Positions 15,143-41,362 of a stretch of DNA of 64,000 nucleotides are shown piece after piece; position 1 is the first letter of the stretch; each line of letters begins with the position of its first letter. The notes beneath the pieces are model-generated. The model saw only the letters and a list, made by a program, of their open reading frames with translations. It was not told the origin of the DNA and made no database searches. The DNA is taken from NCBI GenBank assembly GCA_905339165.1, contig CAJPFH010000025.1:1-64000 (forward strand). Reading direction: 5' to 3'. The stretch comes from Flavobacteriales bacterium (GTDB lineage Bacteria; Bacteroidota; Bacteroidia; Flavobacteriales_E; Vicingaceae). Both the position numbers and the translations under genes were made by a program.

Positions 15143-16651
15143 TTAACGTCTTCCTAAGCCAATGGGGCTTCCCACTCTTGTCATTGCACAACGAAACCCA
15201 ATATCTGAAGTGCTTTGGTCTTCGTCTAGATACCTTCGTGTACCAGGAGCTAGCCAATAAGCTCGGTCTTTCCAAGAACCTCCTTTGTACACTTTTGTGC
15301 GGTTACTTATCAAGGTGTTAAAGTTTCCATCGCCTTCGCTGGGATTATGGTACATTGCTCTGTTCGCAATTTCGGCAAAGTTGTCTGCACTTTCATAAAA
15401 GATGCTAGACTCTCTGTCTCCGTCTAAATAGTTAATATTATCTGATTGTCTGTAATTTCTTCTTTGGGCTAAATTATCTAACTCGGGGGTTACATCTCTG
15501 TAAATTATTTTTCCTAAGCTATCTTTTTCAGCAATGGCACCATCTTCATCTAACAATTTAGTTTGGAAAACATTTCCTCTAAAAGGGCGGAAGTCATCAT
15601 TGTCTTCTAAAGATAGAGGGCGGTAAGTATCCATAACCCATTCAGAGACGTTTCCCGCCATATTGTATAATCCATAATCATTAGGCCAATAGGAAAATAC
15701 TGGGGTTGTAACATCTCCGGCATCATTTAATTTTCCGGCTACGCCCATATTGTCGCCACGGTCTCGTTTAAAATTGGCTAAAATTTGTCCCATGTATTTA
15801 TTGTCGGCATTTCTTACAGCATGTCCTGTCCAAGGATACAACTTGCGTTCGGTAATCAATTCTGCGGTTGTGTTACCAATTAAACTGAAAGCGGCATATT
15901 CCCATTCGGCCTCTGTTGGTAGTCTATATTTTGGAAGTAATATACCATCTTCCATTCTTACATTTCTGTATTCATTGTTAGGGTTATAGTCGGGAAGCCC
16001 ATCAATTCTTTTTCCGCTTTCATACTGCCCAAGCATATATGCTTCAGTATTAAAGTTATCTTCGTTAATTTGGTTCGAGTTCCATTCAAATAAACCCTCG
16101 CGGATAAGAATTAACTCGTTTACCCTGTCGGTACGCCAAGCACAAAAATTGTTTGCCTGTAACCAATTTACTCCCACTACAGGATAATCTCTGTATGCGG
16201 GGTGACGTAAATAATACTCTACATAGGGTTCGTTAAAAGCTAGTTTTTCTCTCCAAACAAGCGTATCCGGTAGGGCTTGCTTAAATACCTCAGGATAATC
16301 TGCCGAGTACACTCTATTTAGCCAATACAAATATTCTAGGTAAAAGAAATTGGTTATCTCTACTTCATCCATATAAAACGAAGACACAGTAACGGTTCTT
16401 GGTATATTGTTCCATTCGTAAGTTACATCTTGTTCGGTTCTACCCATTGTAAATCTACCCCCTTCAATTAAAACCAAGCCGGGTCCGGTTTCTTGCTCTA
16501 AATAAGGGGCCTTTTGGAAGCCTCCGTTTTTAGGATCATTATAATTCCAACCAGTAGCTCCAGATCTTTCTTTTTTACAAGACGTAAAAGCGGTAGGTGC
16601 TGTTAAAAAAGCTACTAATAATAGTTTAGAAATGTTTCCTTTCAACCTCAT
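15143..16651 (-). CDS. gldJ: Gliding motility / T9SS lipoprotein GldJ
   Basis: A 502-residue outer-membrane lipoprotein. The signal peptide ends in AFTSC with the acylated cysteine at residue 25. The rest is a formylglycine-generating-enzyme-like (SUMF1) fold: GGRFTMGRTEQDV near 62-74, FYMDEVEITNFFYLEYLYWL, YLRHPAYRDYPVVGVNW, YRLPTEAEWEYAA near 240, NVSEWVMDTYRP and GFRCAMTR at the end. The early phrase GWNYNDPKNGGFQK and the WRTDRVNE segment fit GldJ better than its paralogue GldK. GldJ is a non-enzymatic part of the gliding motor track and stabilises T9SS components. The gene is 24 bases after a porP/sprF gene and ends at a terminator, so porP-gldJ is a two-gene operon, divergent from porU-porV. 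Confidence 0.92.
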   Translation of the reverse strand: MRLKGNISKLLLVAFLTAPTAFTSCKKERSGATGWNYNDPKNGGFQKAPYLEQETGPGLVLIEGGRFTMGRTEQDVTYEWNNIPRTVTVSSFYMDEVEITNFFYLEYLYWLNRVYSADYPEVFKQALPDTLVWREKLAFNEPYVEYYLRHPAYRDYPVVGVNWLQANNFCAWRTDRVNELILIREGLFEWNSNQINEDNFNTEAYMLGQYESGKRIDGLPDYNPNNEYRNVRMEDGILLPKYRLPTEAEWEYAAFSLIGNTTAELITERKLYPWTGHAVRNADNKYMGQILANFKRDRGDNMGVAGKLNDAGDVTTPVFSYWPNDYGLYNMAGNVSEWVMDTYRPLSLEDNDDFRPFRGNVFQTKLLDEDGAIAEKDSLGKIIYRDVTPELDNLAQRRNYRQSDNINYLDGDRESSIFYESADNFAEIANRAMYHNPSEGDGNFNTLISNRTKVYKGGSWKDRAYWLAPGTRRYLDEDQSTSDIGFRCAMTRVGSPIGLGRR

Positions 16652-16675
16652 AACTTTTGAATTTTTATTTTATAA

Positions 16676-17644
16676 CTAAAATGATGGACAACTTATTGTT
16701 CTGAATCTTCGTTTTTTAGGTTTACAGTCGAAATTTAAACCAACTGAAATTTCATGAGAACCTGCCGTTTTATTGGTTAGTTTAGACGTAGTTATGTCAT
16801 AACTGTATCCAAACTTAAATACATCAGCCTGAAAGCCTAGAAGCGCGATAAAAGAATCTTGGTTCCTGTACCATAAGCCTCCAACAATAGGCCCTTTGGT
16901 AAAATACATCCCGAAAAGAATTTGCTGAAAATCTTGTTGCTTTTGAAATAATAAGTTAGGCGATAAGGTGGCCGGTTCCCCTCTGCTTTCTAAAGGAATT
17001 ATAGCTCCTCCATGAAAGGTGTATTTCCTAGGTAATTTGGTAGTTGGATTTTGAATAACGGTTTCATTTGGCTGAGTAAGGTGGTGTACGGCAAATCCTG
17101 CAAAGTACCTTTCACTGTAGCCTAGAATGCCGGCAGAAAAATCAACAAAATTTCCAGGTTGAGCTCTCGGTATTTCCTGAGAGGTATAAACAAAACCCCT
17201 TCTAGGGTCAATCATATCACCAAAGGTTAATTTATCCCAATCTACCTTTTTTTGCCCCCACATTGCCTGTAAACCAAATTTCATTGAAAATCTTCTGTTT
17301 ACAGGTAAGTGATAGGAATACATTCCGCTAACATGAGTAGTGGTAAGTGTTCCGGTTCCGGCTCTATCTGTAAGTACATGTAAACCAAGTCCGCCCGCAA
17401 GAGCATCAACGTGCTGATCGTAAGAAGCACTGTAAGTTACAAAATTCCCTGAAATACCTGGCCATTGGTTGCGATAGTTAAGGTTTACCCTTGGACAACG
17501 AATGGTGCCTGCCATGGCAGGATTTAAGTATAACGGATTAGCATAAAACTGGGTAAACTCAGGGTCTTGTGCCCATACCTCAGAGGTTGTTAAAAAGCAC
17601 GAAGTGAGTGCTATTAATATAACTTTTAGTCCTTTTTTTAACAT
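16676..17644 (-). CDS. Type IX secretion system membrane protein, PorP/SprF family
   Basis: A 322-residue outer-membrane beta-barrel protein. From the ATG at 17644 it has a signal peptide (MLKKGLKVILIALTSCFL, cleaved after EVWAQ), then the PorP/SprF opening DPEFTQFYANPLYLNPAMAG, alternating strand-like segments, and a C-terminus in Cys-Pro-Ser-Phe. A start 30 bases upstream would put non-signal residues first. PorP/SprF proteins work with the T9SS, and SprF-like members assist export of type-B sorting-domain cargo. It is upstream of gldJ on the same strand, recalling the porP-gldK order of the core T9SS operon. Here the partner lipoprotein is GldJ. Confidence 0.9.
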   Translation of the reverse strand: MLKKGLKVILIALTSCFLTTSEVWAQDPEFTQFYANPLYLNPAMAGTIRCPRVNLNYRNQWPGISGNFVTYSASYDQHVDALAGGLGLHVLTDRAGTGTLTTTHVSGMYSYHLPVNRRFSMKFGLQAMWGQKKVDWDKLTFGDMIDPRRGFVYTSQEIPRAQPGNFVDFSAGILGYSERYFAGFAVHHLTQPNETVIQNPTTKLPRKYTFHGGAIIPLESRGEPATLSPNLLFQKQQDFQQILFGMYFTKGPIVGGLWYRNQDSFIALLGFQADVFKFGYSYDITTSKLTNKTAGSHEISVGLNFDCKPKKRRFRTISCPSF

Positions 17645-17708
17645 AGGTAGCCTAATTGTATGCTTCGTTGGCAAAACTGCTTTAACGAAGGTTTAATATT
17701 CAAAGTTT

Positions 17709-17834: not shown

Positions 17835-20800
17835 ATGAAGAATTCCCCCAATTTATTATTTTTCCTTTTTTTCTTTTTTGCGTTTATTGTTGTTGGGCAA
17901 AACCCAGAACAGCCAATATTTCTTAATTGGCAGCAACCCATCGTTAATAAAATTTCAGAGAATAAAAGTTTAAGATTCTTGTATTTTGAGGGTGCTTATT
18001 TTGCTTCAGAGTACAATTATTTGCCTTACTACCTTGAGGAGGTAAATCTTAAGAAAGGTCAAGAACTAGGGGGGGTAAGTTTAAAAGAGGTTGAAGTGTC
18101 TGATATTGATTATAATACAGCTGATATAGTGGGGGTAGAAAGTATAGAAACAGAGTTTAAGATAACTTACAAGACAAGTTATTTCAAAAAGGAACCTAAG
18201 GGTTACATCTTAGTTTTTCCGGTTAGAAAAAATGTTTCCACAGGAAAAGTTGAAGTGTTGACGAAGTTTTCGATTTCATTCAAGGAGCAGACCATAAAAC
18301 AACCGCCAGTTACAAATAATAAAACAGCTACCACTTCTGTATTGGCATCAGGCGATTGGTACAAAATAGGGGTAACATCATCAGGAGTTTTTAAGTTAAC
18401 ATATAACTTTCTTAAAAGTGCAGACATAGACGTAGATAATATTGAACCTAAAAATATTCGTGTTTTTGGAGGACAACAAGGAATGCTCCCGGGTAAAAAT
18501 AATGTGCAGAGAGTAGATGATTTGCAAGAGATGGCTATTGCTGTTTATGGCGAAAATGATGGAAAATTTAATAAATCAGATTACATTCTGTTTTACGGAA
18601 ACTCTCCTAATGTGTGGGCTTTTGATGCAATAACGCAACGTTTTATTCATAAAATACATGAATTTTCGGATACTACTTTTTATTTTATTACATTCAATAA
18701 CGGAGCGGGAAAAAGGATTCTAAATCAACCATCAACTCAACTTACTCCAACCCATTTTACAACTACTTTCGATGATTATCTGTATTATGAAAAAGATAAT
18801 ACAAATCTTATTAAATCCGGCAGAGTATGGTTGGGCGAAAAATTTGATGTGATAAATGAACATAATTTTAGTTTCAACTTTTCGGATATTGTAAGTGGAA
18901 GTACCATTTACCTGAAATCGAGTGTTTATGCTAGGTCGGCTAGCGTTTCTACATTCACTATATCTTCCGGAAATAATGTTTTTAGCCAAATGGTTCAGGG
19001 TACACAAGTAAATAATTATTATGATAGTTATGCCCAACCATCAATCAGTGAATACAACTTTGCAGCCAGTAATTCACTTGTAAACATCAAAATGAAATTT
19101 AATAAGAATTCAGCTCAGGATATGGGTTGGCTCAATTATTTAGCCTTAAATGTGAGGCGAAACCTAAAACTATCGGGCAATCAAATTGTTTTTAGAGATA
19201 GAACTACCGTAGACATTGGAAATATCACCCAATTTACACTTAGCGGAGTTAATAACCAAACCTCTGTTTGGGACATAAGCGATTTTTTTAATATTAAAAA
19301 CCAAGAGGGCATGTTGAGCGGAAACACTTTCGTATACAGTTTGTCAACACCTTTTCTAAGAGAATTCATTGTTTTTAATACCCCCGACTCTTTAGGAATT
19401 ACTTACAAAGGGCAAGTGAAAAATCAAAACTTACATGCAATGTTGCAATCAGATCTAATTATTGTAACACATCCAAATTTTTTGTCGGCTGCTAACGATT
19501 TAGCTTCATATAGAAAGGGCCAAGGAATGAGTGTTAATGTGGCAAGTACTCAAGATATATACAATGAGTTTTCTGGGGGGGCTACAGATATAGTGGCCAT
19601 TAGAGATTTTGTGAGAATGTTTTACGAACGAGCTACCAACCAATCGGAAATGCCCAAGTATCTTTTATTATTTGGCGATGGTTCTTATGATAATAAAAAC
19701 AGAATTAATGCCAATAGCAACTTTATTCCAACACATCAGTCGGCCAATTCGCATAGCCCTACCGATTCTTACGTTTCAGACGATTATTTTGGCATGCTCG
19801 ATGTAACCGAAGGCGAATGGAAAACAACAGATAACGATATAGCCGATGTAGGTATTGGTCGTTTACCTGCAAAATCATTAGAAGAAGCTAATGCCATGGT
19901 AAAAAAAATAAAACACTATGAAAGTGTGGCAACTATGAAAGATTGGAGAAACATACTGACCTTCGTAGCCGATGATGAAGACGGAGTGTTGCACATGGAT
20001 CAGGCAAACAAGTTATCTGTAATGGTTGATACAACCGAAAAAGCGTATAACTTAGAAAAAATATTTTTTGATGCCTATAGGCAGGAATCTACGCCCGGAG
20101 GAAGTCGATATCCTGATGTGAATAAAGCAATAAACGAAAGAACAGAAAAAGGAGCTTTAATTGTAAATTATACAGGACACGGAGGGGAAATAGGTTGGGC
20201 TCACGAAAGAGTTTTAGGTATTCCCGATATAAAAAGTTGGAATAATTTAGACAATATGCCCTTGTTTTTTACGGCAACTTGTGAATTTAGTCGCTTTGAT
20301 GACCCAGAGAGGACATCGGCAGGCGAACTCATCATGCTTCATCCTAATGGTGCTGGTATAGGGCTTTTTACCACAGTGCGTTTGGTTTATTCCTCTCCGA
20401 ACTTATCCTTAAATCAAAGTTTTTATAAAAATGTATTCAAGCCAATTAATGGAAAAATGCCATGCATCGGAGATGTATTCAGAATTGTAAAAGCTTCGCA
20501 AGGAGGAAGTGTAAATACTAGAAATTTTACCCTCCTGGCCGACCCTTCCATGCAATTAGCTTATCCGAAGCATTTGGTTGAAAGCATCGAGATCAACGGA
20601 AAACCCGCTGCACAAGGGGATACCATACGAGCCTTAAGCAAAGTAACCATAAAAGGTTTTGTAAAAGACAAAGCTGGCCAGAAGATAACCAACTTTAATG
20701 GCGTAATATACCCAACGGTTTATGATAAACTTAGCGAAATAGCCACTCTAAATAATGATGGAGATGGAGTGTTCAACTTTAAAGTAAGAAATAGTAAGCT

Positions 20801-21641
20801 TTTTAAGGGGAAAGCAAGTGTTATAAACGGAGACTTTTCTTTCTCATTTGTAGTCCCTAAAGATATAGCCTATACGTACGGAACAGGGAGAGCTAGCTAT
20901 TACGCAGAAAACGGACAGGAAGATGCACATGGATACTACGAAGGGTTTATTGTTGGGGGAACCAGCTCTAATTACGCACAAGATAATACCGGCCCGGAAG
21001 TAAAACTCTATATGAATGATGACAATTTTGTTTTCGGAGGCATTACAGACGAGAACCCTGTTTTTTACACAAATGTTTTCGATGAATATGGAATCAACAT
21101 GACGGGAAATGGAGTAGGGCACGATATTACTGCTGTATTAGACGGAAATGTAAACGATGTGCTGATTTTAAACGACTTTTATGAGTCGGAACAAGATAGT
21201 TACCAAAAAGGAAAAATTAAATACCCTTTTAAAAATCTAAGCGAAGGAAAGCATTCTCTTACTCTCAAATTGTGGGACGTTTACAATAATTCAACCGAAG
21301 CCAGCTTAGATTTTACAGTAGTAAAAAACAAAGAAATAGCATTAGATAAAGTGTATAACTACCCTAATCCGTTTACCACCCATACTGAATTTTGGTTTGA
21401 ACACAACCAGGCAGGAAAATATTTAAACACACAAATCCAAATTTATACCATTTCCGGAAAACTTGTAAAAACCATACAGCAAGATTTATATGCAGAAGGA
21501 TACAGAGAAGATGCTATTGTATGGAATGGATTAGATGATTTTGGTGATAAACTGGCCAGAGGAGTTTACATTTACCGTTTAAAAGTTCGCTCTTCGAACG
21601 GAACAATTGCTGAGAAATACGAAAAACTAGTAATATTGTAA
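17835..21641 (+). CDS. porU: T9SS signal peptidase PorU (C25 gingipain-like family)
   Basis: A 1268-residue exported protein that cleaves the C-terminal sorting domain from T9SS cargo and links the cargo to the surface. The signal peptide covers about residues 1-22 (ending VVGQN). The catalytic C25 domain contains LLLFGDGSYDNKNR, then YTGHGGEIGWAHERVL with His782 and TATCEFSRFDDPERTSAGE with Cys816, the expected His/Cys pair. The C-terminus has a sorting-domain-like fold (YNYPNPFTTHTEFWFE ... GVYIYRLKVRS), which in PorU helps it dock on PorV. The length fits the family. It lies 20 bases upstream of porV and diverges from porP-gldJ. Confidence 0.95.
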   Translation: MKNSPNLLFFLFFFFAFIVVGQNPEQPIFLNWQQPIVNKISENKSLRFLYFEGAYFASEYNYLPYYLEEVNLKKGQELGGVSLKEVEVSDIDYNTADIVGVESIETEFKITYKTSYFKKEPKGYILVFPVRKNVSTGKVEVLTKFSISFKEQTIKQPPVTNNKTATTSVLASGDWYKIGVTSSGVFKLTYNFLKSADIDVDNIEPKNIRVFGGQQGMLPGKNNVQRVDDLQEMAIAVYGENDGKFNKSDYILFYGNSPNVWAFDAITQRFIHKIHEFSDTTFYFITFNNGAGKRILNQPSTQLTPTHFTTTFDDYLYYEKDNTNLIKSGRVWLGEKFDVINEHNFSFNFSDIVSGSTIYLKSSVYARSASVSTFTISSGNNVFSQMVQGTQVNNYYDSYAQPSISEYNFAASNSLVNIKMKFNKNSAQDMGWLNYLALNVRRNLKLSGNQIVFRDRTTVDIGNITQFTLSGVNNQTSVWDISDFFNIKNQEGMLSGNTFVYSLSTPFLREFIVFNTPDSLGITYKGQVKNQNLHAMLQSDLIIVTHPNFLSAANDLASYRKGQGMSVNVASTQDIYNEFSGGATDIVAIRDFVRMFYERATNQSEMPKYLLLFGDGSYDNKNRINANSNFIPTHQSANSHSPTDSYVSDDYFGMLDVTEGEWKTTDNDIADVGIGRLPAKSLEEANAMVKKIKHYESVATMKDWRNILTFVADDEDGVLHMDQANKLSVMVDTTEKAYNLEKIFFDAYRQESTPGGSRYPDVNKAINERTEKGALIVNYTGHGGEIGWAHERVLGIPDIKSWNNLDNMPLFFTATCEFSRFDDPERTSAGELIMLHPNGAGIGLFTTVRLVYSSPNLSLNQSFYKNVFKPINGKMPCIGDVFRIVKASQGGSVNTRNFTLLADPSMQLAYPKHLVESIEINGKPAAQGDTIRALSKVTIKGFVKDKAGQKITNFNGVIYPTVYDKLSEIATLNNDGDGVFNFKVRNSKLFKGKASVINGDFSFSFVVPKDIAYTYGTGRASYYAENGQEDAHGYYEGFIVGGTSSNYAQDNTGPEVKLYMNDDNFVFGGITDENPVFYTNVFDEYGINMTGNGVGHDITAVLDGNVNDVLILNDFYESEQDSYQKGKIKYPFKNLSEGKHSLTLKLWDVYNNSTEASLDFTVVKNKEIALDKVYNYPNPFTTHTEFWFEHNQAGKYLNTQIQIYTISGKLVKTIQQDLYAEGYREDAIVWNGLDDFGDKLARGVYIYRLKVRSSNGTIAEKYEKLVIL

Positions 21642-21661
21642 ATTCGCTTAATGTATAATTA

Positions 21662-22897
21662 ATGAGAAAACTTTTTATAATACTGCTTACCATAGGATTT
21701 GTTAATACAACATCCTTTGCACAGTTTGCTACCAACCGAGATCGATTTACCGATTCCACCCTGCAACTCAATACCATTACCACGGCTGTTCCTTTTTTAT
21801 TAATTACTCCCGATTCTCGTGCCGGTGCAATGGGCGATGCCGGAGTGGCTATGTCGGCCGATGCCAATTCAATACATTGGAATCCTGCAAAGTTGGCTTT
21901 TGTAGATAAAGAAATGGGTTTTGCTATTTCGTATGCACCATGGCTAAGGCAGTTAGTTCCAGATATTAATTTATCGTACTTAAGTGGGTTTAAACGCCTC
22001 GATGATATGTCAACCCTAGCAGCCTCTCTTAGGTATTTCTCTTTAGGTGATATCACATTTACTGATAATGTTGGAAATACTATAGGTCAATTTAGGCCAA
22101 ACGAGTTTGCCTTAGATGTTGCTTATGGAAGAAAACTTGCCGACAATTTTTCAGGCGGAATAGCACTACGTTATATCTACTCAAATTTAACCGGTGGTAT
22201 TTCTGCTAACGGTACAGCTACTACAGCAGGAAATTCTGTGGCTGTTGATGTATCAGGGTTTTACAATAATCAAGATATGGAAATATTAGGTAAAGACGGA
22301 GGGTTTGCAGCCGGAATAAATATTTCAAATATTGGTGCCAAAATGTCGTATACCGAAAATGCACAAAAAGATTTTATTCCAATTAATTTACGTATGGGGC
22401 AATCCACTACCATCCGATTCGATGATTACAATAGCCTCTCTTTCCTTCTTGATTTTAATAAACTCTTAGTACCAACTCCTCCGCAATATTTAAGAGATTC
22501 AGCCACCGGAGCTTTGGTGTACGATTCTAACGGTGAAAAAATTATCTCTAAGGGTAGAAGCTCTAATGTTTCTGTTGCTTCCGGTATGTTTGGCTCATTC
22601 TCCGATGCTCCTGAAGGTTTTAAAGAAGAGTTGAGGGAATTTAATATTTCGGCAGGTATGGAATATTGGTACAATAAACTCTTAGCCCTTCGAATGGGAT
22701 ATTTTAACGAGCATATAACCAAAGGAAATAGAAAATATTTAACTTTCGGAGCCGGTTTGCGATTAAGCGTATTTGGTTTAGACATAGCTTATTTAGTAGC
22801 TACTACACAACAAAACCCATTGGCAAACACCATCCGATTTACGCTTTCTTTTAATTTCGATGATTTTAAAAAGCAGAATAAAGATACTAACGAGTGA
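21662..22897 (+). CDS. porV: T9SS outer-membrane protein PorV
   Basis: A 411-residue outer-membrane barrel (also called LptO) that carries T9SS cargo from the translocon to PorU. A signal peptide (about 1-20, ending TSFAQ) is followed by the family block PDSRAGAMGDAGVAMSADAN, then SIHWNPAKLAF and YAPWLRQLVPDINLSY. Further on are regular barrel strands and a C-terminus ending in an aromatic-rich strand (IRFTLSFNFDDF). It is next to porU, its known partner, and overlaps the ispF start by 4 bases (GTGA), so translation of the two is probably coupled. Confidence 0.95.
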   Translation: MRKLFIILLTIGFVNTTSFAQFATNRDRFTDSTLQLNTITTAVPFLLITPDSRAGAMGDAGVAMSADANSIHWNPAKLAFVDKEMGFAISYAPWLRQLVPDINLSYLSGFKRLDDMSTLAASLRYFSLGDITFTDNVGNTIGQFRPNEFALDVAYGRKLADNFSGGIALRYIYSNLTGGISANGTATTAGNSVAVDVSGFYNNQDMEILGKDGGFAAGINISNIGAKMSYTENAQKDFIPINLRMGQSTTIRFDDYNSLSFLLDFNKLLVPTPPQYLRDSATGALVYDSNGEKIISKGRSSNVSVASGMFGSFSDAPEGFKEELREFNISAGMEYWYNKLLALRMGYFNEHITKGNRKYLTFGAGLRLSVFGLDIAYLVATTQQNPLANTIRFTLSFNFDDFKKQNKDTNE

Positions 22898-31000: not shown

Positions 31001-32149
31001 TTACTTCACTAGTTTTGAAACATGGTAAACTTCTCCGTTTTTATAAATTCTACAGAAATAGATACCTGCACTTAGTTCAAAGTTTAGCGAGTTCACACCA
31101 TTTTGTAAGGGAACAAAAATTAATTCTTGTCCTGTAACATCAAATATTCGAACGGAAAGATTTCCTTGTTCAACGATGGAGATATTTAACTGTTGCTCAA
31201 AAGGAATTGGGTATATCTTAACTTCTGTTTGTTTTTCTAATTCTATTTCACCTACATTACAATTGGTATTGCAGTAAGTAACTGTTCCGGCTATTGTGCC
31301 GGAATTGGCATCAATATTTCCACCGGTTTTATCACAAAAATCAAGTGTTCCGGTAATGTTTCCCGAGTTGGCCGTATAGTTTGCAATGCAAAACTGACCG
31401 GTTCCGTTAACATCCTCTGAATTAAACCAGTTGTTTCCTACAGATACCAATCCATTGTTAATAAATTCAGCAGTATTCATTAAACTGTCTCCATTATAAA
31501 AATTTTGTTTAATATCCATAATCATGTTATTCGTAGCATCTCCAGAATTTAAAAAATCAAGATTAACCGTAACCCATCCATTATTATTAAATACGGTATT
31601 GGTGTATAATATTGACGAAACATACAAGTTGCCATTGGTATTGTTATCATACGTTCCGGCATTTAAAAATGTAGCCACATTAATGGTTCCTGCATTGTTG
31701 CTTATAGTTCCTTGAATTCCGAGTGTATCGGAAATATTAATTAATGAGGAATTGGAGAAAGTGGAACCGGTTGTAACAAGTAAATTGGCGGTAACGCCTA
31801 TGGTTCCGGTGTTAGAAAGCGAACCGCTACTGGCTAATAATAAATTTCTTATAGTTAAAGTTCCTTTATTGTTTAGCACACCGGTACCCCCCACAGAAAT
31901 ATTTCTGGTGGTTAAATCTTGGGTAAGAGAGGCTCCCTGATTGATGGTTAGAGAACCGGACAAATACCCCCAGTCTACATCTAGTACTACATTGTGGTTA
32001 ATTATCAAATGTTCTCCGGGTTGAGGTAAACAAGTGCAATCCCAAATAAGAGGATTGGTTGCATTTCCGTTAGAAACAGTTGTTCGGGTTGATTGCGAAT
32101 AAGAACCAAGCATTGATGTTAAAAAGGCAAAGAGTAATAGTTTTTTCAT
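31001..32149 (-). CDS. Exported repeat protein with type-A T9SS sorting domain
   Basis: A 382-residue protein. A signal peptide (1-18, ending GSYSQ) is followed by a long region of Asn-, Gly-, Ser- and Thr-rich short repeats (about 60-290) with hydrophobic residues at regular spacing: SLTINQGASL, GTLTIRNLLL, SGSLSNTGTIGV, GTISNNAGTINV. These look like rungs of a right-handed beta-helix. The C-terminal 75 residues (KIYPIPFEQQLNISIVEQG ... GIYFCRIYKNGEVYHVSKLVK) are a type-A sorting domain for export and surface anchoring. No catalytic motif is seen. A binding or structural surface role is likely. It lies convergent to pdhC and 110 bases after the next T9SS cargo gene. Confidence 0.83.
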   Translation of the reverse strand: MKKLLLFAFLTSMLGSYSQSTRTTVSNGNATNPLIWDCTCLPQPGEHLIINHNVVLDVDWGYLSGSLTINQGASLTQDLTTRNISVGGTGVLNNKGTLTIRNLLLASSGSLSNTGTIGVTANLLVTTGSTFSNSSLINISDTLGIQGTISNNAGTINVATFLNAGTYDNNTNGNLYVSSILYTNTVFNNNGWVTVNLDFLNSGDATNNMIMDIKQNFYNGDSLMNTAEFINNGLVSVGNNWFNSEDVNGTGQFCIANYTANSGNITGTLDFCDKTGGNIDANSGTIAGTVTYCNTNCNVGEIELEKQTEVKIYPIPFEQQLNISIVEQGNLSVRIFDVTGQELIFVPLQNGVNSLNFELSAGIYFCRIYKNGEVYHVSKLVK

Positions 32150-32258
32150 AGTTGTAATGTTTTTAATGGTTTATAAAAGTTTAACAATTAAAAAAAAAGA
32201 TGAGTTACATAATTAGATATAAAAAAGCATTTCCGTTTGTTTTTCATAAGCGAAACAT

Positions 32259-34808
32259 TTATTCAATTATAATTTTTTCTGCCTTCTTCCCTTCTTTTGT
32301 AGACAAAATAATAAAATACATGCCTCGATTAAAATTAGATAAATCTAAATCAGTACGAATGCCTGAATGAGTAGGAGTAACGTGTTGTGCAAAAACGATT
32401 CTTCCGGTAATATCGGCTATTTCTATTAAAATTGGATTATTATCTTTTGCGGTAAATTGAACCGAAATGAATCCGTGGCTAGGATTTGGGTAGACAGTTA
32501 AATCAGAAAAAAGAGAATTTTCACCAATGGAACTCAAACAATTTTTTACCAAAACCGAGTCTATTGCTGTATCGGAGCATGTTGCATTTATGGCAACAAG
32601 CGTTATAACAAAAGTACCAGTAGAAGAGTAAGTATGGTTTGCATTTAACGAGGTTGAAGAATTACCATCTCCAAAATACCATATTCTAGAGGTGCTGTTC
32701 AAACTGGTGTTCAACAAGCCTAAGTTGGGATTTATGTCTAAACAAAGCGTGTCACTTGTTTTTAAGAAACTGGAAGTAGGCGTAACCTTTACGGTTACAT
32801 ATACCGAATCTGTTTTAGAACAGTTATTGTTATCTGTTCCGGTAACAAAATATTTGGTGCTGCTTAAAGGTCCAGCCAATGGATTAGGGCAATTAGTACA
32901 ACTTAAGCCTAAAGCTGGAGTCCAAATATAATTAGAGGCTCCCGTTGCATTTAATTGAACATTAGAATTGTAGCACACATTAGTATCAAGACCTGCATCT
33001 ACATTAGGTAGAGGGTTTACTGTTACCGTTTGTTGTGCAGAAGCAGAGCAATTGTTAATGTTTGTTACAATAAGGGTATAAGTTCCCGAAGTGGATACTA
33101 CGATAGATTGTGTTGTTTCGTTTGTAGGCAGCCACAACCAGTTCATATTATTGGGCCCTGTAAGTGAAACAGAACCGCCTTGGCAAAAGGTAGTAGGTCC
33201 GTTAGCTACAATACTGTTAATTGGAAGTGAATTTACAGTGATGGTAATGGTATCGCTATCAGTACAGCCAGAATTATTCGTTGAAGTAATTACATACGTA
33301 GTAGTTACCAATGGTTTTGCCCACGGATTAGGGCAGGTTGTACAACTAAGTCCTAAAGAGGGAGACCAAGAATAGCTAATGCCTCCAACTGCATTCAGTT
33401 GAATACTGTCGCCTACGCAAATAGCAGTATCTTGTCCTGCTGAGGTTTCGAACTGGCACCATTTTATGGTATTAAAATCGAATCCGTTCCCCGGAAACTT
33501 GCTTCCTCCGGTAACGTATATATTCTCGTTTGCATCTAAGTCCATAGAATAAGCTTGGTCTGCATCATTGGCAGGACCGTTGTAGCGTGCTTCCCAAACG
33601 ATATTTCCATTTGAAGTATCATACTTCAATGTTATATAATCGTTATTGGTTCCAAATATGGCAGAGGTTCCATTTACGTACAAAGCACCACTGTTTCCTA
33701 GCATTATATTTCTTCCTTCATCAAAACCATTTCCCGGACCGTTGTACGTATTTAACCATTTTGGAGCACCTCCATTGGAACCGTACTTTATGGTAGTAAT
33801 ATTTTGTCCGTTGCCAATACCTTTACTTCTTCCGGTTACGTACACGTTTCCGTTGTTATCAATTGTTAAATCGTAGGCATTGTCTTCTTCACTTAGTGGT
33901 CCATTGTACCTTTCTGCCCACTGTTGCACACCCGAGTTGTTGTACTTTATAGTGGCATAATCATTATCCAATAACTGGCCGCCATAACTGAATCCCGTTA
34001 TATACACATTTCCGGAGCCATCTACCTTAACTTTTGTAGGACTATCGAAACTATTTACAGGGCCATTGTAAGAGGTAGCCCATTGCTGCACTCCGCTATT
34101 GTTGTACATAACAGTTCTGTAGTTTAGGTCTTGTCCGGTTTGAAAACTTCGTCCGGTAACAAATACATTTCCATTTGCATCAAGGGCAATGGCTGTAGCC
34201 GCATCAATATTGTTAGATACACCATTGTGCTGAACACCCCAAACCATATTTCCGTTCGAAGCATCGTACTTAATCGTATAATAATCACTTCCGGCAGCAA
34301 CGAAATCGGAACCTCCGGTTACATAAACAAATCCTGTATTATCAACGGCAATAGCATACGCTTCATCGTAAGAGCCCGCCAGAGGGCCATTATGTTGTAC
34401 CGCCCATTGTTGAGTCAGAGAATTGTTATATTTTATGGTGATGTAGTTTACATTACCTCCTGTTGCTGTTGTTAATCCTGTAATGTACACGTTGCCCATA
34501 TTATCAATAGCGAGGTCTCTCACTTCATCTATTCCGTTTCCTGAGCCATTAAAAATAGCAGGAGATCCTATTTGAAAACCATTGTTATCATACTTTACGG
34601 TAACGATATCATAACTATTAGAACCCGTTTGGAATGAGGTGCCAGAAACAAAAACATTTCCTGAGCCATCTAATTTAACAATTGATGCAATATCCTGATT
34701 TAAACTGGAACTAGTATACTGTGCATCCCATAATACATTGATTTGGGCATTCAGAATAACCGAAAAAAAGACCCCTAGACCTAAAAATTTTAACTTTAAA
34801 CTATTCAT
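32259..34808 (-). CDS. SBBP-repeat beta-propeller T9SS cargo protein
   Basis: An 849-residue exported protein. After a signal peptide (about 1-21, ending NAQ) come eight units of about 50 residues with the pattern GNVYVTGxS ... DYxTIKYNxxGxxxWxxxYNGPxxxxDxAxxLxxDxxG (about 45-450), the beta-propeller repeat called SBBP. The first half-unit and the last half-unit would close the ring. Three Ig/PKD-like domains follow (about 455-690), with ICVGDSIQLNAVGGISYSW and WYFGDGNSSTS. The C-terminal 80 residues (LTVYPNPSHGFISVQF ... GMYFIILSTKEGKKAEKIIIE) are a type-A sorting domain. A surface binding protein is inferred. A promoter with both boxes lies upstream. Confidence 0.87.
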   Translation of the reverse strand: MNSLKLKFLGLGVFFSVILNAQINVLWDAQYTSSSLNQDIASIVKLDGSGNVFVSGTSFQTGSNSYDIVTVKYDNNGFQIGSPAIFNGSGNGIDEVRDLAIDNMGNVYITGLTTATGGNVNYITIKYNNSLTQQWAVQHNGPLAGSYDEAYAIAVDNTGFVYVTGGSDFVAAGSDYYTIKYDASNGNMVWGVQHNGVSNNIDAATAIALDANGNVFVTGRSFQTGQDLNYRTVMYNNSGVQQWATSYNGPVNSFDSPTKVKVDGSGNVYITGFSYGGQLLDNDYATIKYNNSGVQQWAERYNGPLSEEDNAYDLTIDNNGNVYVTGRSKGIGNGQNITTIKYGSNGGAPKWLNTYNGPGNGFDEGRNIMLGNSGALYVNGTSAIFGTNNDYITLKYDTSNGNIVWEARYNGPANDADQAYSMDLDANENIYVTGGSKFPGNGFDFNTIKWCQFETSAGQDTAICVGDSIQLNAVGGISYSWSPSLGLSCTTCPNPWAKPLVTTTYVITSTNNSGCTDSDTITITVNSLPINSIVANGPTTFCQGGSVSLTGPNNMNWLWLPTNETTQSIVVSTSGTYTLIVTNINNCSASAQQTVTVNPLPNVDAGLDTNVCYNSNVQLNATGASNYIWTPALGLSCTNCPNPLAGPLSSTKYFVTGTDNNNCSKTDSVYVTVKVTPTSSFLKTSDTLCLDINPNLGLLNTSLNSTSRIWYFGDGNSSTSLNANHTYSSTGTFVITLVAINATCSDTAIDSVLVKNCLSSIGENSLFSDLTVYPNPSHGFISVQFTAKDNNPILIEIADITGRIVFAQHVTPTHSGIRTDLDLSNFNRGMYFIILSTKEGKKAEKIIIE

Positions 34809-34983: not shown

Positions 34984-37900
34984 ATGAAGATACTTACCAA
35001 TTGGCGATTAAAAATTTTATTATTGTTACTTATTGTTCCTGCATTTGTTAGTGCAACTCATATCGTGGGGGGATCGTTAACCTATGAACATATTTCAGGA
35101 GCAACCTATAGAATTACTGTAAAGTTATACAGAGACTGTAAGCCAGGTAATGCAGCTTTTCCAAATCCATTAACAGTAGAAGTAAGAAATGGGTTAAATG
35201 GTAATACATTTTCCCCAACTAAAAATGTTAGTATTCCACTCACTAGTACTTATATCTTAGATCCTCCAATTGATACCTGTGCCTTTAATCCTGGAATTTG
35301 TGTTCAGGAAGCTATATATACAAAAATTGTAAATAACTTGCCACCTAATTTAGGAGGCTATCACTTATATTATGGGTTTTGTTGTAGAAACGGTACTATT
35401 ACAAATCTTACCAATCCACTTAGTCAAACAGAAAGTTTTTATACTTACATTCCTGATAACAATATCTATTTAACCAACAGTAGTCCGCAGTGGAAAAATT
35501 ATACTCCGGTGTTTATTTGTCAGGGGCAACAACTAACCTTTGATCATGGAGCAACTGATAAAGACGGTGATTCCTTAGTGTATTCATTATATCGTCCATT
35601 TCAACAAGGGCCAACTTGGGGTCCTTGGCCAAATTTTCCTACCTTCCCCTTAGTAAACTATGCCGGAGCATACACCTATTTAGATCCATTAGATCCTGCT
35701 CAAATGGGTAATTTTGGTATAGACCCTCAAACGGGTGTGTTTTTTGGAGTGCCTCCTATTTTAGGGCAGTTTGTTGTTGGAGTAAAGTGTACAGAATACC
35801 GAAATGGCCAATTATTAAATACAATTTATCGAGATTTCCAATTCAACGTGGTAAACTGTCCACCTATTCCCATTGCAGATATTGGTCCTGTTAATGCTTG
35901 TGCCGGAACTACAATTCAGTTTGATAACCAAAGTGTGCCCTTAAACAATAATAGTTTTTATTGGGATTTTGGCGATGGATCTCCCCCTTCAACGCAAATT
36001 AATCCAACGCATACTTATCCGGGTTTAGGAACATATACCATTATGCTTATCGCACAATATGGAACACCTTGTGCCGATACGGTTTATAAAACGATTACTC
36101 TTTCGTGGGCAAATGCCGATTTTACATATAGCGATTCAACGTGCGTTAACACCATAGAGCAATTTTTAGATGCTTCCACAACGGCTCCGGGTAGTTCAAT
36201 CAACTCATGGCAGTGGAATTTTGGGAATGGAAATACAAGTAATACACAGAATCCTACCAATGCGTGGAGTGTGGGGGGAACATACAATGTTACATTAATA
36301 GTTTCCAACACCGATGGATGCGTTGATACGGTTACAAAAAACATGTTTATACAGGCTATGCCCAAAGCCAACGCAGGTATTGACACTTTTTCTTGTATTA
36401 GCAACCCTATCATAAACTTAAATGGTTCGGTACAAAATTGTGGAGGAGGAATATGGCAGGGAGCAGGAACATTTATCCCTAATAATACAACCTTAAATGC
36501 AGGGTACAACCCTACTCCGGGTGAGTTATCCAATGGGTTTGCACAACTTATTTTATTTACTACCCAAAATGGTTTCTGTCCGGGGCATTCCGATACGGTA
36601 ATTATAAACTATACCACAGGAATTGAAGTAACGGTAGGGCCAGATTTATTCGTATGCAAAGATTCTACAAATATCCCTATCAGTGGTACTGTTGTTACAG
36701 CTACCGGAGGGCAATGGAGCACTAGCGGAACAGGTTATTTTTTACCAAACTCTTTTGCCTTAAACGGATTTTACATGCCTAGTTCAGCTGATACGGCTGC
36801 TGGTTGGGTAATGCTGATACTTAATTCTATAGGAAATGGTAACTGTGTACCTGATGCGGATACATTGTTCATATATTTTTCTTCTACTCCTTCAGTAAAT
36901 ATATTATCGGGAGATACAGCTTGTGCCGGAACGCAACTTATTCCCATTAGTGCTACCTCAACTACAGGAACAGGTTATTGGACAACCAACGGAGATGGCT
37001 ATTTTACCCCCGATGACAGTTTGCTTATAACCAATTATGTGGCAGGCTCGAACGACAATACAAATGGTTATGTTACTTTGTATTTTACCTCTACCGGAAA
37101 TGGAGGTTGCAAGGCACAAGTTGATTCAGTAACCATATTGCTAATACCTCCGCCTATTGCCGATTTCAGTTTTATAAGCGTATGTCCCAGAGATTCTTTA
37201 TTTTTCTCCGATAGCACAACATCTTCAGCTCCTATTGTAGGATGGAGTTGGAATTTTGGCGATGGCAATACCAGCAATTTACAGAATCCATTCCATCTTT
37301 ATGGTAGTTCTGGTATCTATAATGTAACCCTTATTGTTACGTCAAGTAATGGTTGTGTAGATAGTGTAACCAAGCAAGTAGAGGTGTATCCGTTTCCAAA
37401 TGCAAATTTTGGTGTAGACGGTATTTGTGTTGATGTGGAAAGCCAGTTTAATGACAGTACTACTATAGGAAGTGGCTCAATTGCCTCATGGTATTGGACA
37501 TTTGGAGATGGAAGTAATTCTACCAGCCAAAACCCTATACATACTTACGCTAATTCGGGAACATATACCGTAACACTTATAGTAACATCCATTCATGGAT
37601 GTTCGGATACTATCACAAAAACCATTTTTATCAACCCTCCTCCTGTTGCTGATTTTGAAAGTTCTCCGGCATCGGTTAAAGTGTTTGAAAAATTCTCGTT
37701 TACCGATAAATCGTACGATGATATTATGGCTTGGTTTTGGGATTTTGGCGATAATATTGGAACTTCAAACGAACAAAACCCTCAATACGGTTATGCTTCT
37801 TCGGGTAATTTTACGGTTTGTCTTCGTGTTACCGATATAGCCGGGTGTGAAGATAGTGTATGCAAAGAGGTAATCGTATTTATGCCTCCGAGTGTGCCAA

Positions 37901-38154
37901 ATGCTTTATCGCCAAACGGAGATGGAGTTAATGATATTCTATACGTTTTAGGTGGACCTTTTAAAGAGTTAGAGTTTAATATATACAATAATTGGGGCGA
38001 ATTAATTTTTACCTCTAACGACCAAAAATATGGTTGGGATGGGAAACGAAAAGGAGTAGAGCAGCCTCTTGGGGTATATGTTTACACCGTAAAAGCCACT
38101 ACACTTGATGATGTTAAACACGAAATAAAAGGAGATGTAACCCTTTTAAGATAA
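34984..38154 (+). CDS. Large multi-PKD surface protein with type-B T9SS sorting domain
   Basis: A 1056-residue protein from ATG 34984; a TTG nine bases upstream also fits but gives a poor signal peptide. After the signal (ending FVSA) comes THIVGGSLTYEHISGATYRI, an N-terminal region of about 290 residues widely seen in Bacteroidota PKD proteins. Next are two PKD domains (about 295-465), three units of about 85 residues with GxWxxxGxGxFxP and GNGxC phrases (about 465-715), and three more PKD domains (about 720-965). The end is a type-B sorting domain (VPNALSPNGDGVNDILYVL ... WGELIF ... GDVTLLR). It heads a run with a PorP/SprF gene and a PorE-like gene and is likely their secreted client, a surface adhesin. 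Confidence 0.88.
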   Translation: MKILTNWRLKILLLLLIVPAFVSATHIVGGSLTYEHISGATYRITVKLYRDCKPGNAAFPNPLTVEVRNGLNGNTFSPTKNVSIPLTSTYILDPPIDTCAFNPGICVQEAIYTKIVNNLPPNLGGYHLYYGFCCRNGTITNLTNPLSQTESFYTYIPDNNIYLTNSSPQWKNYTPVFICQGQQLTFDHGATDKDGDSLVYSLYRPFQQGPTWGPWPNFPTFPLVNYAGAYTYLDPLDPAQMGNFGIDPQTGVFFGVPPILGQFVVGVKCTEYRNGQLLNTIYRDFQFNVVNCPPIPIADIGPVNACAGTTIQFDNQSVPLNNNSFYWDFGDGSPPSTQINPTHTYPGLGTYTIMLIAQYGTPCADTVYKTITLSWANADFTYSDSTCVNTIEQFLDASTTAPGSSINSWQWNFGNGNTSNTQNPTNAWSVGGTYNVTLIVSNTDGCVDTVTKNMFIQAMPKANAGIDTFSCISNPIINLNGSVQNCGGGIWQGAGTFIPNNTTLNAGYNPTPGELSNGFAQLILFTTQNGFCPGHSDTVIINYTTGIEVTVGPDLFVCKDSTNIPISGTVVTATGGQWSTSGTGYFLPNSFALNGFYMPSSADTAAGWVMLILNSIGNGNCVPDADTLFIYFSSTPSVNILSGDTACAGTQLIPISATSTTGTGYWTTNGDGYFTPDDSLLITNYVAGSNDNTNGYVTLYFTSTGNGGCKAQVDSVTILLIPPPIADFSFISVCPRDSLFFSDSTTSSAPIVGWSWNFGDGNTSNLQNPFHLYGSSGIYNVTLIVTSSNGCVDSVTKQVEVYPFPNANFGVDGICVDVESQFNDSTTIGSGSIASWYWTFGDGSNSTSQNPIHTYANSGTYTVTLIVTSIHGCSDTITKTIFINPPPVADFESSPASVKVFEKFSFTDKSYDDIMAWFWDFGDNIGTSNEQNPQYGYASSGNFTVCLRVTDIAGCEDSVCKEVIVFMPPSVPNALSPNGDGVNDILYVLGGPFKELEFNIYNNWGELIFTSNDQKYGWDGKRKGVEQPLGVYVYTVKATTLDDVKHEIKGDVTLLR

Positions 38155-38167
38155 AGAAAAGAGAAGA

Positions 38168-39169
38168 ATGAGAAAGACAGTTTTAATTAGTTTGTTTGCG
38201 GTATTCTGCATATGTGCAGAAATAAAATCACAAGATTTCCACCTTTCGCAATTCGATGCAAACGCGATGTATTTTAACCCCGCATTGGCAGGTAAGTTTA
38301 ATGGCGAATTTAGATTGCATGGGCATTACCGAACCCAATGGTCTGCAATTGCAACAAAGCCTTTTACCACAGCTGCATTAGCCTTTGATATGCCTCTTAA
38401 AAATAAAAAGTGGGCGGTAGGAGCAATGGTAATGAATAACAGAGCGGGTGCCGGTTTATATAACGTATTAAGCGTTATGCTAAACGGAGCATACGATTTT
38501 GCTGTTGATAAAAATAAATTTCATCATATTTCACTAGGCCTTCAGGCTGGTATTATACAAAAAAGCATAGACGAAGAGAAGCTATACTTTGCCTCACAAT
38601 ACACGCCCTTTGGAGGGGGTACATTTGATCAGGCTATTCCTAGCGGAGAAAATTTAGGAGGTGCAAGTTTTATAATTCACGGGGTAAATGCAGGGTTGTT
38701 GTATTATTATGCGAACGAGCAAAGTCGTATCAATCCTTTTGTTGGATTTACTACATACCATTTAACCGAACCCAAAGAAACATTTTACAATACCAGTAAC
38801 AAAATACCCATGCGGCATGTGTTACAAGTAGGAACCAAAGTAAATATTACAGAAAGAATACAGGTAATACCTAAAATTCTTAACATGTATCAAACTAATG
38901 CAAAAGAACTTTTGTACAGCGTTATAGGTCATTATTATCTTAAAAATAGTGATACCTATTTAATATTTGGCCCTACATTCCGATCTAAAGATGCTGCTGT
39001 AGTAGAAGCCGGCATTAGGGTGGGAGCCTATACAGGAAGGATTAGTTACGACATAAACACATCGTCATTAAAGCCCTATACCGACAGTAGAGGAGGTTTT
39101 GAAATTTCATTAACTTACATACCCCGAAAAATAAATCCAAATCCAATTTCTAATTGCCCCAGGTTATGA
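38168..39169 (+). CDS. Type IX secretion system membrane protein, PorP/SprF family
   Basis: A 333-residue outer-membrane barrel. Signal peptide MRKTVLISLFAVFCICAEIK, cleaved before SQDF. Then QDFHLSQFDANAMYFNPALAGKF and HGHYRTQWSAIATKPFTTA, the PorP/SprF opening, followed by strand-like segments and a C-terminus ending Asn-Cys-Pro-Arg-Leu, similar to the other copy at 16676. SprF-like proteins are needed for surface export of type-B sorting-domain proteins. This one follows the large PKD gene by 13 bases, which suggests it serves that cargo. Its stop codon overlaps the ATG of the PorE-like gene (ATGA). Confidence 0.9.
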   Translation: MRKTVLISLFAVFCICAEIKSQDFHLSQFDANAMYFNPALAGKFNGEFRLHGHYRTQWSAIATKPFTTAALAFDMPLKNKKWAVGAMVMNNRAGAGLYNVLSVMLNGAYDFAVDKNKFHHISLGLQAGIIQKSIDEEKLYFASQYTPFGGGTFDQAIPSGENLGGASFIIHGVNAGLLYYYANEQSRINPFVGFTTYHLTEPKETFYNTSNKIPMRHVLQVGTKVNITERIQVIPKILNMYQTNAKELLYSVIGHYYLKNSDTYLIFGPTFRSKDAAVVEAGIRVGAYTGRISYDINTSSLKPYTDSRGGFEISLTYIPRKINPNPISNCPRL

Positions 39170-41304
39170 TACGTTCGAGAGCAGGAATATTTTTTAGTTT
39201 TTTACTACTATTTTCTTCGTTACTTTTTTCTCAAAGCAGAAGAGAATTAATACACCTTGGAGATGCGGCTTTCAAAAATGAAAATTTTGCATCGGCAGCG
39301 CATTTTTACCGTTTGGTTGTAGAAAGAAATACATCGGAAAATACTCAGAATACCTTTCCATACGAAATCAGATATTGGAAAGGTAACGGAAAACAAAAAA
39401 CAACCGATACAACTTCGGTTAAAAGTGAGGAAGATAAAAACGAAAAGAAAACAGAAATTTCTCTAGAGGATCATTACGTATATCACCAAATAGCCGAATC
39501 ATACAGAAGAAATAGTGATTACAAGAATGCTGAGATATGGTACGAAAAAATAAAGCATTTAAAATCGGAACAATTTCCGGCAGAGAGGGTATGGTATGCA
39601 GACTGTTTAATGAAAAATGGCAAGTACGACCATGCTATAGAACAAATAGAACTCTTCAGGGAAGACACATCCTCTTCCATTACACCTGAATTAAGCCTCA
39701 TAGCCGAAAAGTTAATGATGGGCTGTTATTTTGCCAATGACCCGGAATCCGATAATCCCAATATGCGAGCTAACTTGCTAGACTCATTAATTAATTCTGG
39801 TACCGCTTCATACAGCATTAATTACTTTGGCGATGAGAGGAAAATAATTTTTTCATCGGCCAGACAGGGAAATGTTACCGGAGAGAACGAACTCAACAAT
39901 CCTTCTTTCCTTAGTGATTTTTATTTGGGCGAATTTAATGACGGAAAATTAGAGTATGTTACCAATATGGGTTCGCCCATTAATTCTGAAAACATAGAAG
40001 GAGCAGGTGTGTTATCGCCCGATAGAAGCACTTTTTATTTTACACGAAAGTCAAATCTCAATTCAAGCGAATGTGCCATATACGTTAGCAAGTTTTTTAA
40101 CAATCAATGGCTACAGCCTATGAAGTTAGACAACAAGGTAAATGCAGAGGGTTTTAAATCCATGCACCCAACACTAAGTGAAAAAGGAGATATCCTGTTT
40201 TATTCATCAAACCGTCCGGGAGGGCAGGGAGGGATGGATATATGGTACTGCACCATAGATGAGTATGGCAGTATGGAGGGACCTTATAATTTAGGATTTG
40301 TAGTAAACTCTCCACGCGATGAGGTTTCTCCTTTCTATCACCATAATACAAAAGTGTTATTTTTTAGTTCAAATGGACATATTGGTATAGGGGGATTTGA
40401 TGTTTTTCAAACCCAATTTAATGAAGACGATGAAACATGGGCGATGCCAAAAAATGCAGGAAGGCCCATCAATTCAAGCAAAGACGATGCATTTTTTGTA
40501 ATGAACAAAGAATTATCGGGCGGATATTTTTCATCAGATAGAGATGTATGTAAAGATTGCGGAGAAGATTACAAAGGTTCCGAATACTGTTACAAAGTGT
40601 ATTCTTTTGGTAAAGCACAAATGGAGTTTAGTGTTAGTGGAGTGGTGTACAATGCCGAAACAGATGAGGTAATACCCAACGCCCTCATAACTTTTAAAGA
40701 TGTGAAAGGGAATTTTGAACCCTTCTTTATTACTACCGATGAAGAAGGAGCTTATTACCAAGAATTACAGCATAACTGGCAAATTTTTATAAAAGCTCAA
40801 AAAGTAAAATTCTTTGGCGATGCAGCTACCGTATCTACTATGGGATTAACAGAATCGCAGCATATTATTCAAGATTTTTATTTAACACCCATACCTGCCG
40901 GTGAAATTGAAATTCCGGGAATTGAATACGATTACGATAAGGCCACGCTACGTCCTGAATCTAAAAAAATACTTGATGATTTGATTGAATTCTTAAAACT
41001 AAATGATAACCTTACCATAGAAATACGCTCGCATACAGACCAACGCGGTAATGATGATTACAATCTCAGATTATCTAAAGAAAGAGCGAAGTCTGTGGTT
41101 GATTACTTAATGGCTAATGGTATAGAAAAAGACAGATTGTTTCCAATTGGATTGGGAGAAACGGAATTGTTAGACGATTGTTTTAAAGACCATCCAGAGT
41201 GCGGAGAAACAGGAAAAACCGATTGTGATTGTCATCAGAGAAACCGCAGAACGGCATTTAAACCTATTTCGCAAGATTATAATAATATATTTAAGGGTAA
41301 ATAA
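39166..41304 (+). CDS. PorE-like OmpA-family protein (TPR, PD40, OmpA domains)
   Basis: A 712-residue exported protein with the domain order of the T9SS component PorE. A signal peptide (about 1-24) leads to TPR-like helices (about 28-185; AAFKNENFASAAHFYRLVVE, AESYRRNSDYKNAEIWYEK) and a WD40-like PD40 beta-propeller (about 210-450; SPDRSTFYFTRKSN, LFYSSNRPGGQGGMDIWYC, LFFSSNGHIGIGGFDVF). A carboxypeptidase-regulatory sandwich comes next (about 485-560). Last is an OmpA domain (about 590-705; EYDYDKATLRPESKKILDDL, IRSHTDQRGNDDYNLRLSKERA) that should bind peptidoglycan. The ATG at 39166 overlaps the porP stop; a TTG at 39154 is unlikely. It may anchor the module of PKD cargo and PorP/SprF to the cell wall. 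A terminator follows. Confidence 0.88.
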   Translation: MIRSRAGIFFSFLLLFSSLLFSQSRRELIHLGDAAFKNENFASAAHFYRLVVERNTSENTQNTFPYEIRYWKGNGKQKTTDTTSVKSEEDKNEKKTEISLEDHYVYHQIAESYRRNSDYKNAEIWYEKIKHLKSEQFPAERVWYADCLMKNGKYDHAIEQIELFREDTSSSITPELSLIAEKLMMGCYFANDPESDNPNMRANLLDSLINSGTASYSINYFGDERKIIFSSARQGNVTGENELNNPSFLSDFYLGEFNDGKLEYVTNMGSPINSENIEGAGVLSPDRSTFYFTRKSNLNSSECAIYVSKFFNNQWLQPMKLDNKVNAEGFKSMHPTLSEKGDILFYSSNRPGGQGGMDIWYCTIDEYGSMEGPYNLGFVVNSPRDEVSPFYHHNTKVLFFSSNGHIGIGGFDVFQTQFNEDDETWAMPKNAGRPINSSKDDAFFVMNKELSGGYFSSDRDVCKDCGEDYKGSEYCYKVYSFGKAQMEFSVSGVVYNAETDEVIPNALITFKDVKGNFEPFFITTDEEGAYYQELQHNWQIFIKAQKVKFFGDAATVSTMGLTESQHIIQDFYLTPIPAGEIEIPGIEYDYDKATLRPESKKILDDLIEFLKLNDNLTIEIRSHTDQRGNDDYNLRLSKERAKSVVDYLMANGIEKDRLFPIGLGETELLDDCFKDHPECGETGKTDCDCHQRNRRTAFKPISQDYNNIFKGK

Positions 41305-41321: not shown

Positions 41322-41362
41322 AAAAAAAAAAGCCCTTTCAAATGGAAAGGGCTTTTTTTTTT
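41322..41362. terminator. Strong bidirectional terminator
   Basis: AGCCCTTTC (41331-41339), loop AAATG, GAAAGGGCT (41345-41353), with A9 on the left and a long T run on the right. It ends both the PorE-like operon (plus) and the saccharopine dehydrogenase-like gene (minus, ending 41392). Confidence 0.93.

Follow-up and report, generated by a model that had tools for sequence, protein, structure and literature searches.

A three-gene surface-protein locus of a Flavobacteriales bacterium, with cysteines that may lock a PorP/SprF carrier to its PorE-like partner

Introduction

How does one family of outer-membrane carriers route surface proteins of the type IX secretion system (T9SS) to a moving track in some cases and to fixed places in others? 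The question is raised by three adjacent genes on the forward strand of a 64,000-nucleotide stretch of DNA, called the window below (positions 1-64,000 of the forward strand of contig CAJPFH010000025.1, Flavobacteriales bacterium GCA_905339165.1). These encode a cargo protein with a type-B T9SS sorting domain (34984..38154), a carrier barrel of the PorP/SprF family (38168..39169) and a PorE-like protein (39166..41304). Our tentative answer, which we rate at slightly under an even chance, is that the three would form a static surface complex, with the carrier tail docked on the PorE-like propeller and, in the lineage of the window, locked there by a disulfide.

The three-gene set and a wall-anchored cargo-carrier complex are already in print (PMC9143113, PMC12618676). 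A PorE-PorP-PG1035 complex is described from Porphyromonas gingivalis, six porP-like genes of Flavobacterium johnsoniae adjoin porE-like genes, and static anchoring via PorP-PorE has been proposed (PMC9143113). Five operons combine a PorE homolog, a type-B substrate and a shuttle; the cargo of one such trio, Fjoh_3952, is static, whereas SprB and Fjoh_4750 move (PMC12618676). The genes for type-B cargo and PorP/SprF proteins are usually clustered (review, PMC10202324). Movement of SprB depends on the CxC tail of its carrier SprF, which forms a disulfide with GldK (SprF Cys326-GldK Cys343); the GldK cysteine is invariant, and in P. gingivalis PorG one cysteine is enough (PMC12635249).

What looks new in the window lies at the C-terminus of the carrier, an NCPR[L/I] tail that goes together with cysteines in a loop of the partner. 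An open-access literature search, with subscription papers mostly outside it, turned up no description of the tail motif, of the cysteine pair or of PorP fused with SPOR. With a tail motif to predict the partner gene, and paired cysteines to predict a covalent lock, the question comes within reach of single-residue experiments. If the proposal is true, intermolecular disulfides serve Bacteroidota in two opposite ways, to move surface proteins and to immobilise them.

Results

The layout of the locus, first made out from the sequence alone, was borne out by open reading frame calls and family searches. The cargo has 1056 residues, with a Sec signal, PKD repeats that score above the Pfam cut-off, a CHU_C match of 59.9 bits (cut-off 27) and, at 37894..38151, the type-B sorting domain TIGR04131, which scores 43.6 bits in the protein search against a cut-off of 35 and 48.1 bits in the genome-wide domain search. 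Its stop lies 13 bases before the start of the carrier, a clear member of the family by both TIGR03519 (172.9 bits, cut-off 90.55) and PF11751 (136.3 bits, cut-off 22.3). The ATG of the third gene, at 39166, overlaps the end of the carrier gene as ATGA. A predicted structure of the carrier (mean predicted local distance difference test score, pLDDT, 79.6) has 14 strands with a tail, residues 318-333, beyond the last of them; in the model this tail is on the N-terminal side of the barrel, which is probably the periplasmic one. Foldseek likens the model to FadL and to the T9SS translocon barrels 8gl6_F and 6h3i_F, which we take to be PorV, and a sequence search found no PDB chain similar to the carrier.

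The third protein had been credited with the full domain order of PorE. Its TPR, propeller and OmpA regions stand, with Pfam matches to TPR_2, PD40 and OmpA above their cut-offs; the regulatory sandwich between them is seen as strands in the predicted structure (residues 488-573) and as a Pfam match of 18.8 bits, below the cut-off of 32.3. In the model (mean pLDDT 81.9) the TPR helices span residues 25-191, the propeller strands 200-483 and the OmpA domain 597-702, and Foldseek finds TolB, Pal/OmpA and the C-terminal domain of PorE (6top). Like TolB-Pal it sets a propeller beside a Pal-like OmpA domain, but TolB and Pal are separate proteins, the window has a single chain, and the likeness is one of fold only. 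The OmpA peptidoglycan-binding domain (40921..41178) carries D625, N633 and R640, which align with Asp576, Asn584 and Arg591 of PorE, the three residues whose side chains grip peptidoglycan in the structure 6top (PMC7192894). The protein falls outside PorE proper, since the model NF052230 gives it 315.5 bits, about half of the curated cut-off of 600, and since it has no cysteine after the signal peptide and hence no lipobox, PorE being a lipoprotein (PMC7192894); we call it PorE-like for these reasons.

The same gene order is found at other loci. Carriers with at least 48% identity to that of the window were found in 16 of 60 related genomes, the window's own excluded, and all 16 are directly followed by a PorE-like gene. 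A type-B domain precedes the carrier in all 16 as well, scoring only 18 bits in one of them (L037/L305). This conservation of order is more than chance. Among non-congeneric relatives, identity to the window is 49-63% for the cargo over its length (12 rows), 47-59% for the carrier (15 rows) and 43-56% for the PorE-like protein (15 rows). The cargo thus evolves no faster than its partners, and on these comparisons a variable adhesin would be no better a fit than a structural surface protein.

Across the genome such linkage is the rule for carriers and the exception for cargo. The genome-wide search gave 51 type-B matches, 49 of them above the cut-off; of the 12 PorP genes, 10 have cargo directly upstream. 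The idea of a dedicated export route is only partly borne out, since for 39 of the 49 cargo domains the next gene downstream is not a carrier. The remaining two PorP genes lie beside GldJ (window 15143-17674) and in the PorK-L-M operon. A PorE-like gene follows three of the 12, in the window and on contigs C1 and C38.

The case for a covalent lock is built on cysteines. The carrier of the window ends in NPISNCPRL (C330-P-R-L at 39155..39166), with a single cysteine in place of the CxC of SprF-type, mobile carriers. C330 is the only cysteine outside the first 16 residues and hence the sole one in the mature barrel, and it is nearly invariant, together with P331, across 23 aligned carriers. In the PorE-like protein the last propeller blade has a loop with C462, C465 and C475 (40549..40590), which sits between strands 452-457 and 477-483 and is modelled with low confidence. 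PorE-linked carriers fall into three lineages, I (-PR[FYL]- tail, no cysteine), II (the window; -NCPR[L/I]) and III (-CPxFx), and the loops of their partners follow suit. All three loop cysteines are present in 17 of 17 clade II PorE-like proteins and in 0 of 30 from clade I, some further clade II members retaining only two, and 4 of 4 clade III proteins have CC at the same position.

We collected 151 carrier/PorE-like pairs and scored 146, five loci having ended near the loop. Tail and loop cysteines are both present in 88 of the scored pairs and both absent in 58, with 0 discordant; the visible loops of the five unscored pairs carry cysteine too. All 93 carriers with a tail cysteine place it 4 or 5 residues from the end, and in 71 of these it is the sole cysteine after residue 40, so that a bond would have to be intermolecular. 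One locus, once extended, combines the tail PCGRF with a CC loop (L161), and two others (L038 and L305b) have carriers that group with clade II but end without cysteine, and partners that lack the loop cysteines and group with clade I.

The pattern extends to genes that are not neighbours. Ten CC-type PorE proteins have no carrier directly upstream, and a Cys-tailed carrier is encoded elsewhere in 6 of the 6 genomes of these that were searched; in the other direction, an unlinked carrier ending in CPNYI occurs in three genomes of a single genus, and each of them encodes a CC-type PorE at another locus (3/3). Across six genomes the loop cysteines are found in 0 of 34 stand-alone PorE-family proteins (one of which, L323, has no propeller and another, L336, is shortened), and the 8 carrier-adjacent members in the same genomes obey the tail/loop rule, 2 with cysteine and 6 without. 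The sequence-only reading held that equal occurrence of PorE-like proteins at unrelated loci would count against a linked unit. PorE-family proteins do occur alone, as these 34 show, but the Cys-loop type is tied to Cys-tailed carriers.

Carrier tails are also associated with the identity of the neighbouring gene. A tail motif was fixed before the test and applied to 134 carriers, of which 129 were usable after dropping 3 fusions and 2 with short downstream sequence; part of this sample came from the best-scoring carrier matches listed, from which the first 80 that still lacked a locus and lay outside the window's own genome were taken in listed order. The motif was present in 36 of 45 PorE-linked and 6 of 84 unlinked carriers, and a looser, post hoc motif in 41/45 and 5/84. 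A short -PR[FYL]- tail is the usual ending of PorE-linked carriers, and none of the 45 has CxC. Twenty of 32 CPxF-type tails in the sample precede a GldJ-like gene, and all 6 -VRFL-type tails a PorK-like gene. In the genomes of F. johnsoniae CI04 and Flavobacterium sp. Leaf82, 11 of 11 PorE-linked carriers end in [ST]PRFF and lack cysteine, and CxC is found in 5 of 9 unlinked ones.

A simpler rule, that a tail cysteine marks PorE linkage, was rejected, since such a cysteine occurs in 1 of 45 linked and 43 of 84 unlinked carriers of the sample and so is rarer among the linked; only the Cys-type lineages combine the two. Fisher p values for the motif test were likewise discarded as proof, the rows being related and tree-based tests falling short of significance. 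On the carrier tree, PorE linkage changes 10 times. One carrier nested in lineage I (L177, 1477..2400) ends in a tail of the CxC type, CSCYSF, with no PorE within reach, as though its partner had been exchanged.

Natural fusions give independent support for a link between carrier and cell wall. A PorP barrel is fused to an OmpA domain in two proteins (L042, L248) and to SPOR in three, one in the window's own genome (L005, C5:188785-189654) and two in others (L278 and, just below the Pfam cut-off, L241).

Discussion

We propose that the cargo leaves through the shared T9SS translocon and would then be taken up, by way of its type-B domain, and kept by the linked PorP/SprF carrier. The PorE-like protein would receive the short periplasmic C-tail of the carrier at its propeller and may hold peptidoglycan through its OmpA domain; in the window lineage a disulfide from C330 to C462, C465 or C475 could lock the docked tail. 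Such an assembly would parallel the published disulfide between SprF and GldK, though in an immobile form. For it we count the conserved trio, the link between tail motif and linkage, the co-occurring cysteines, the fusions and the SprF-GldK precedent. Gene order, conservation, domain order, tail-partner association and cysteine co-occurrence are observations of this work. Cargo-carrier-PorE complexes, peptidoglycan binding and static cargo are known from the cited papers on relatives. The docking site on the propeller, the disulfide, the immobility and the wall anchoring in this organism are what we infer. As for a functional trio of cargo, carrier and wall anchor, suggested earlier for this locus, linkage, conservation and the published trios make it plausible, and it is not new.

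Three known systems help to place the locus. PorE-PorP-PG1035 (PMC9143113) shares the type-B cargo, the PorP barrel and a protein with TPR, propeller, sandwich and OmpA domains whose peptidoglycan-contacting residues are kept; P. gingivalis PorE, however, is a lipoprotein and the sole one, whereas in the window the protein has no lipobox, falls short of the PorE cut-off and has its gene next to that of its carrier. Fjoh_3952-3951-3950 and similar operons of F. johnsoniae (PMC12618676) have the same three-gene order, and the cargo Fjoh_3952 is static; compared with Flavobacterium, where linked carriers of CI04 and Leaf82 end in [ST]PRFF (loci that were not matched to the Fjoh locus tags of that paper), the window has an NCPRL carrier and a Cys-loop partner. 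SprB-SprF-GldK (PMC12635249) is alike in the cysteine chemistry of a periplasmic carrier tail. There, however, a CxC tail bonds to a moving track, while the window carrier has one tail cysteine and no known link to the track. The roles are also swapped: SprF brings two tail cysteines to one in GldK, and the window carrier brings one to a loop with two or three, which by analogy could act as the donor disulfide.

A broader version, about which we are more doubtful, is that carrier tails form a periplasmic address code, the window trio being its covalent, wall-stapled version. Under such a code CxC would route cargo onto the moving track, carriers encoded with GldJ would be marked by a two-Cys tail that ends in CPSF, and the carrier of the PorK operon by -VRFL. 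Tails with -PR[FY]F would dock on the propeller of a wall anchor of the PorE-like type; those with -CPR[L/I] or -CPx[FYLI]x would dock at the same place and be locked there by a disulfide.

Several points weigh against the proposed complex and its lock. The tail/loop pattern is strong but its statistics are weak, resting on one or two evolutionary changes. Loop cysteines change once on the PorE tree (a 37-bit match, L040, fell outside the trees by the 100-bit threshold), tail and loop cysteines change twice each on the carrier tree, and sign tests on these changes are not significant. Tail motif and linkage likewise track clades: among 8 independent pairs, 4.5 go the same way and 0.2 the opposite (median p 0.125). 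The tail cysteine looks ancestral in one half of the carrier family, GldJ-linked carriers included. Searches made once the tail/loop rule had been set down gave 46 of 46 new pairs with both cysteines (54 found, 8 known already) and then 16 of 16, but as the queries were Cys-type PorE proteins and the pairs were retrieved for their likeness to them, they contain no negatives. One genome (G069) has unlinked carriers ending in CPKF and CPRF and a single full-length PorE without loop cysteines, and the two or three loop cysteines of clade II could pair with each other. The structure predictions cover single chains. Lastly, PorP-PG1035 assembles without PorE (PMC9143113), which makes the PorE-like protein more likely an anchor than a part of the export route; as the cargo also needs the shared translocon, the description of the trio as self-contained finds no support.

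The most serious rival, which we nonetheless think unlikely, keeps the static PorE-PorP-type B complex and dispenses with the covalent bond, the cysteines having been inherited from one ancestor and being structural, metal-binding or idle. The few evolutionary changes behind the pattern suit this explanation, as do the clade I trios, the 11 Flavobacterium carriers included, which have neither cysteine and are presumably functional. It accounts poorly for a single mature carrier cysteine at a fixed, near-end place, nearly invariant as C330, and for L038 and L305b, which lack both cysteines though their carriers group with clade II and their PorE-like proteins with clade I.

Less probable still is that the tail cysteine bonds GldK/PorK of the moving track, as in SprF, so that the cargo would be mobile and the PorE-like protein would serve otherwise. 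The SprF Cys326-GldK Cys343 bond and the sufficiency of one cysteine in PorG (PMC12635249) speak for it, and a two-Cys tail is found in the window too, on the carrier linked to GldJ. SprF-type tails, however, are marked by CxC and occur at a distance from PorE genes, none of the 45 linked carriers in the sample having CxC, and a GldK cysteine reported as invariant (PMC12635249) cannot account for loop cysteines that follow those of the tail. It is very improbable that the PorE-like protein serves the envelope in general or the T9SS core and is in the operon by chance: genomes do have many PorE-family proteins, mostly without a neighbouring carrier, but in the window's genome another protein, at C4:77144-79063, exceeds the curated PorE cut-off with 613.9 bits, and the PorE-like gene is kept at 16 of 16 orthologous loci.

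Neighbouring genes and flanking features

Downstream of the trio and before a convergent gene, a hairpin with a T run resembles an intrinsic terminator (41331..41362, forward strand); it was read by eye only and is absent from the output of a regulatory-signal scan. A promoter scan of the locus gave signal at chance level. Directly upstream are two divergent proteins with type-A sorting domains (31001-34808, reverse strand).

A 1912-residue protein in another genome (L138, 223..5961), presumably SprD-like, has an N-terminal PorP-like domain and lies near an SprF-type locus. The second PorP of the window (15143-17674, reverse strand), whose two-Cys tail reads C..CPSF, has its gene immediately ahead of that for GldJ. 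This pair is adjoined by the PorU sortase (NF033707, 1371.6 bits) and PorV (NF033710, 505.1 bits) at 17835-22897 on the forward strand, so that the window holds several T9SS parts.

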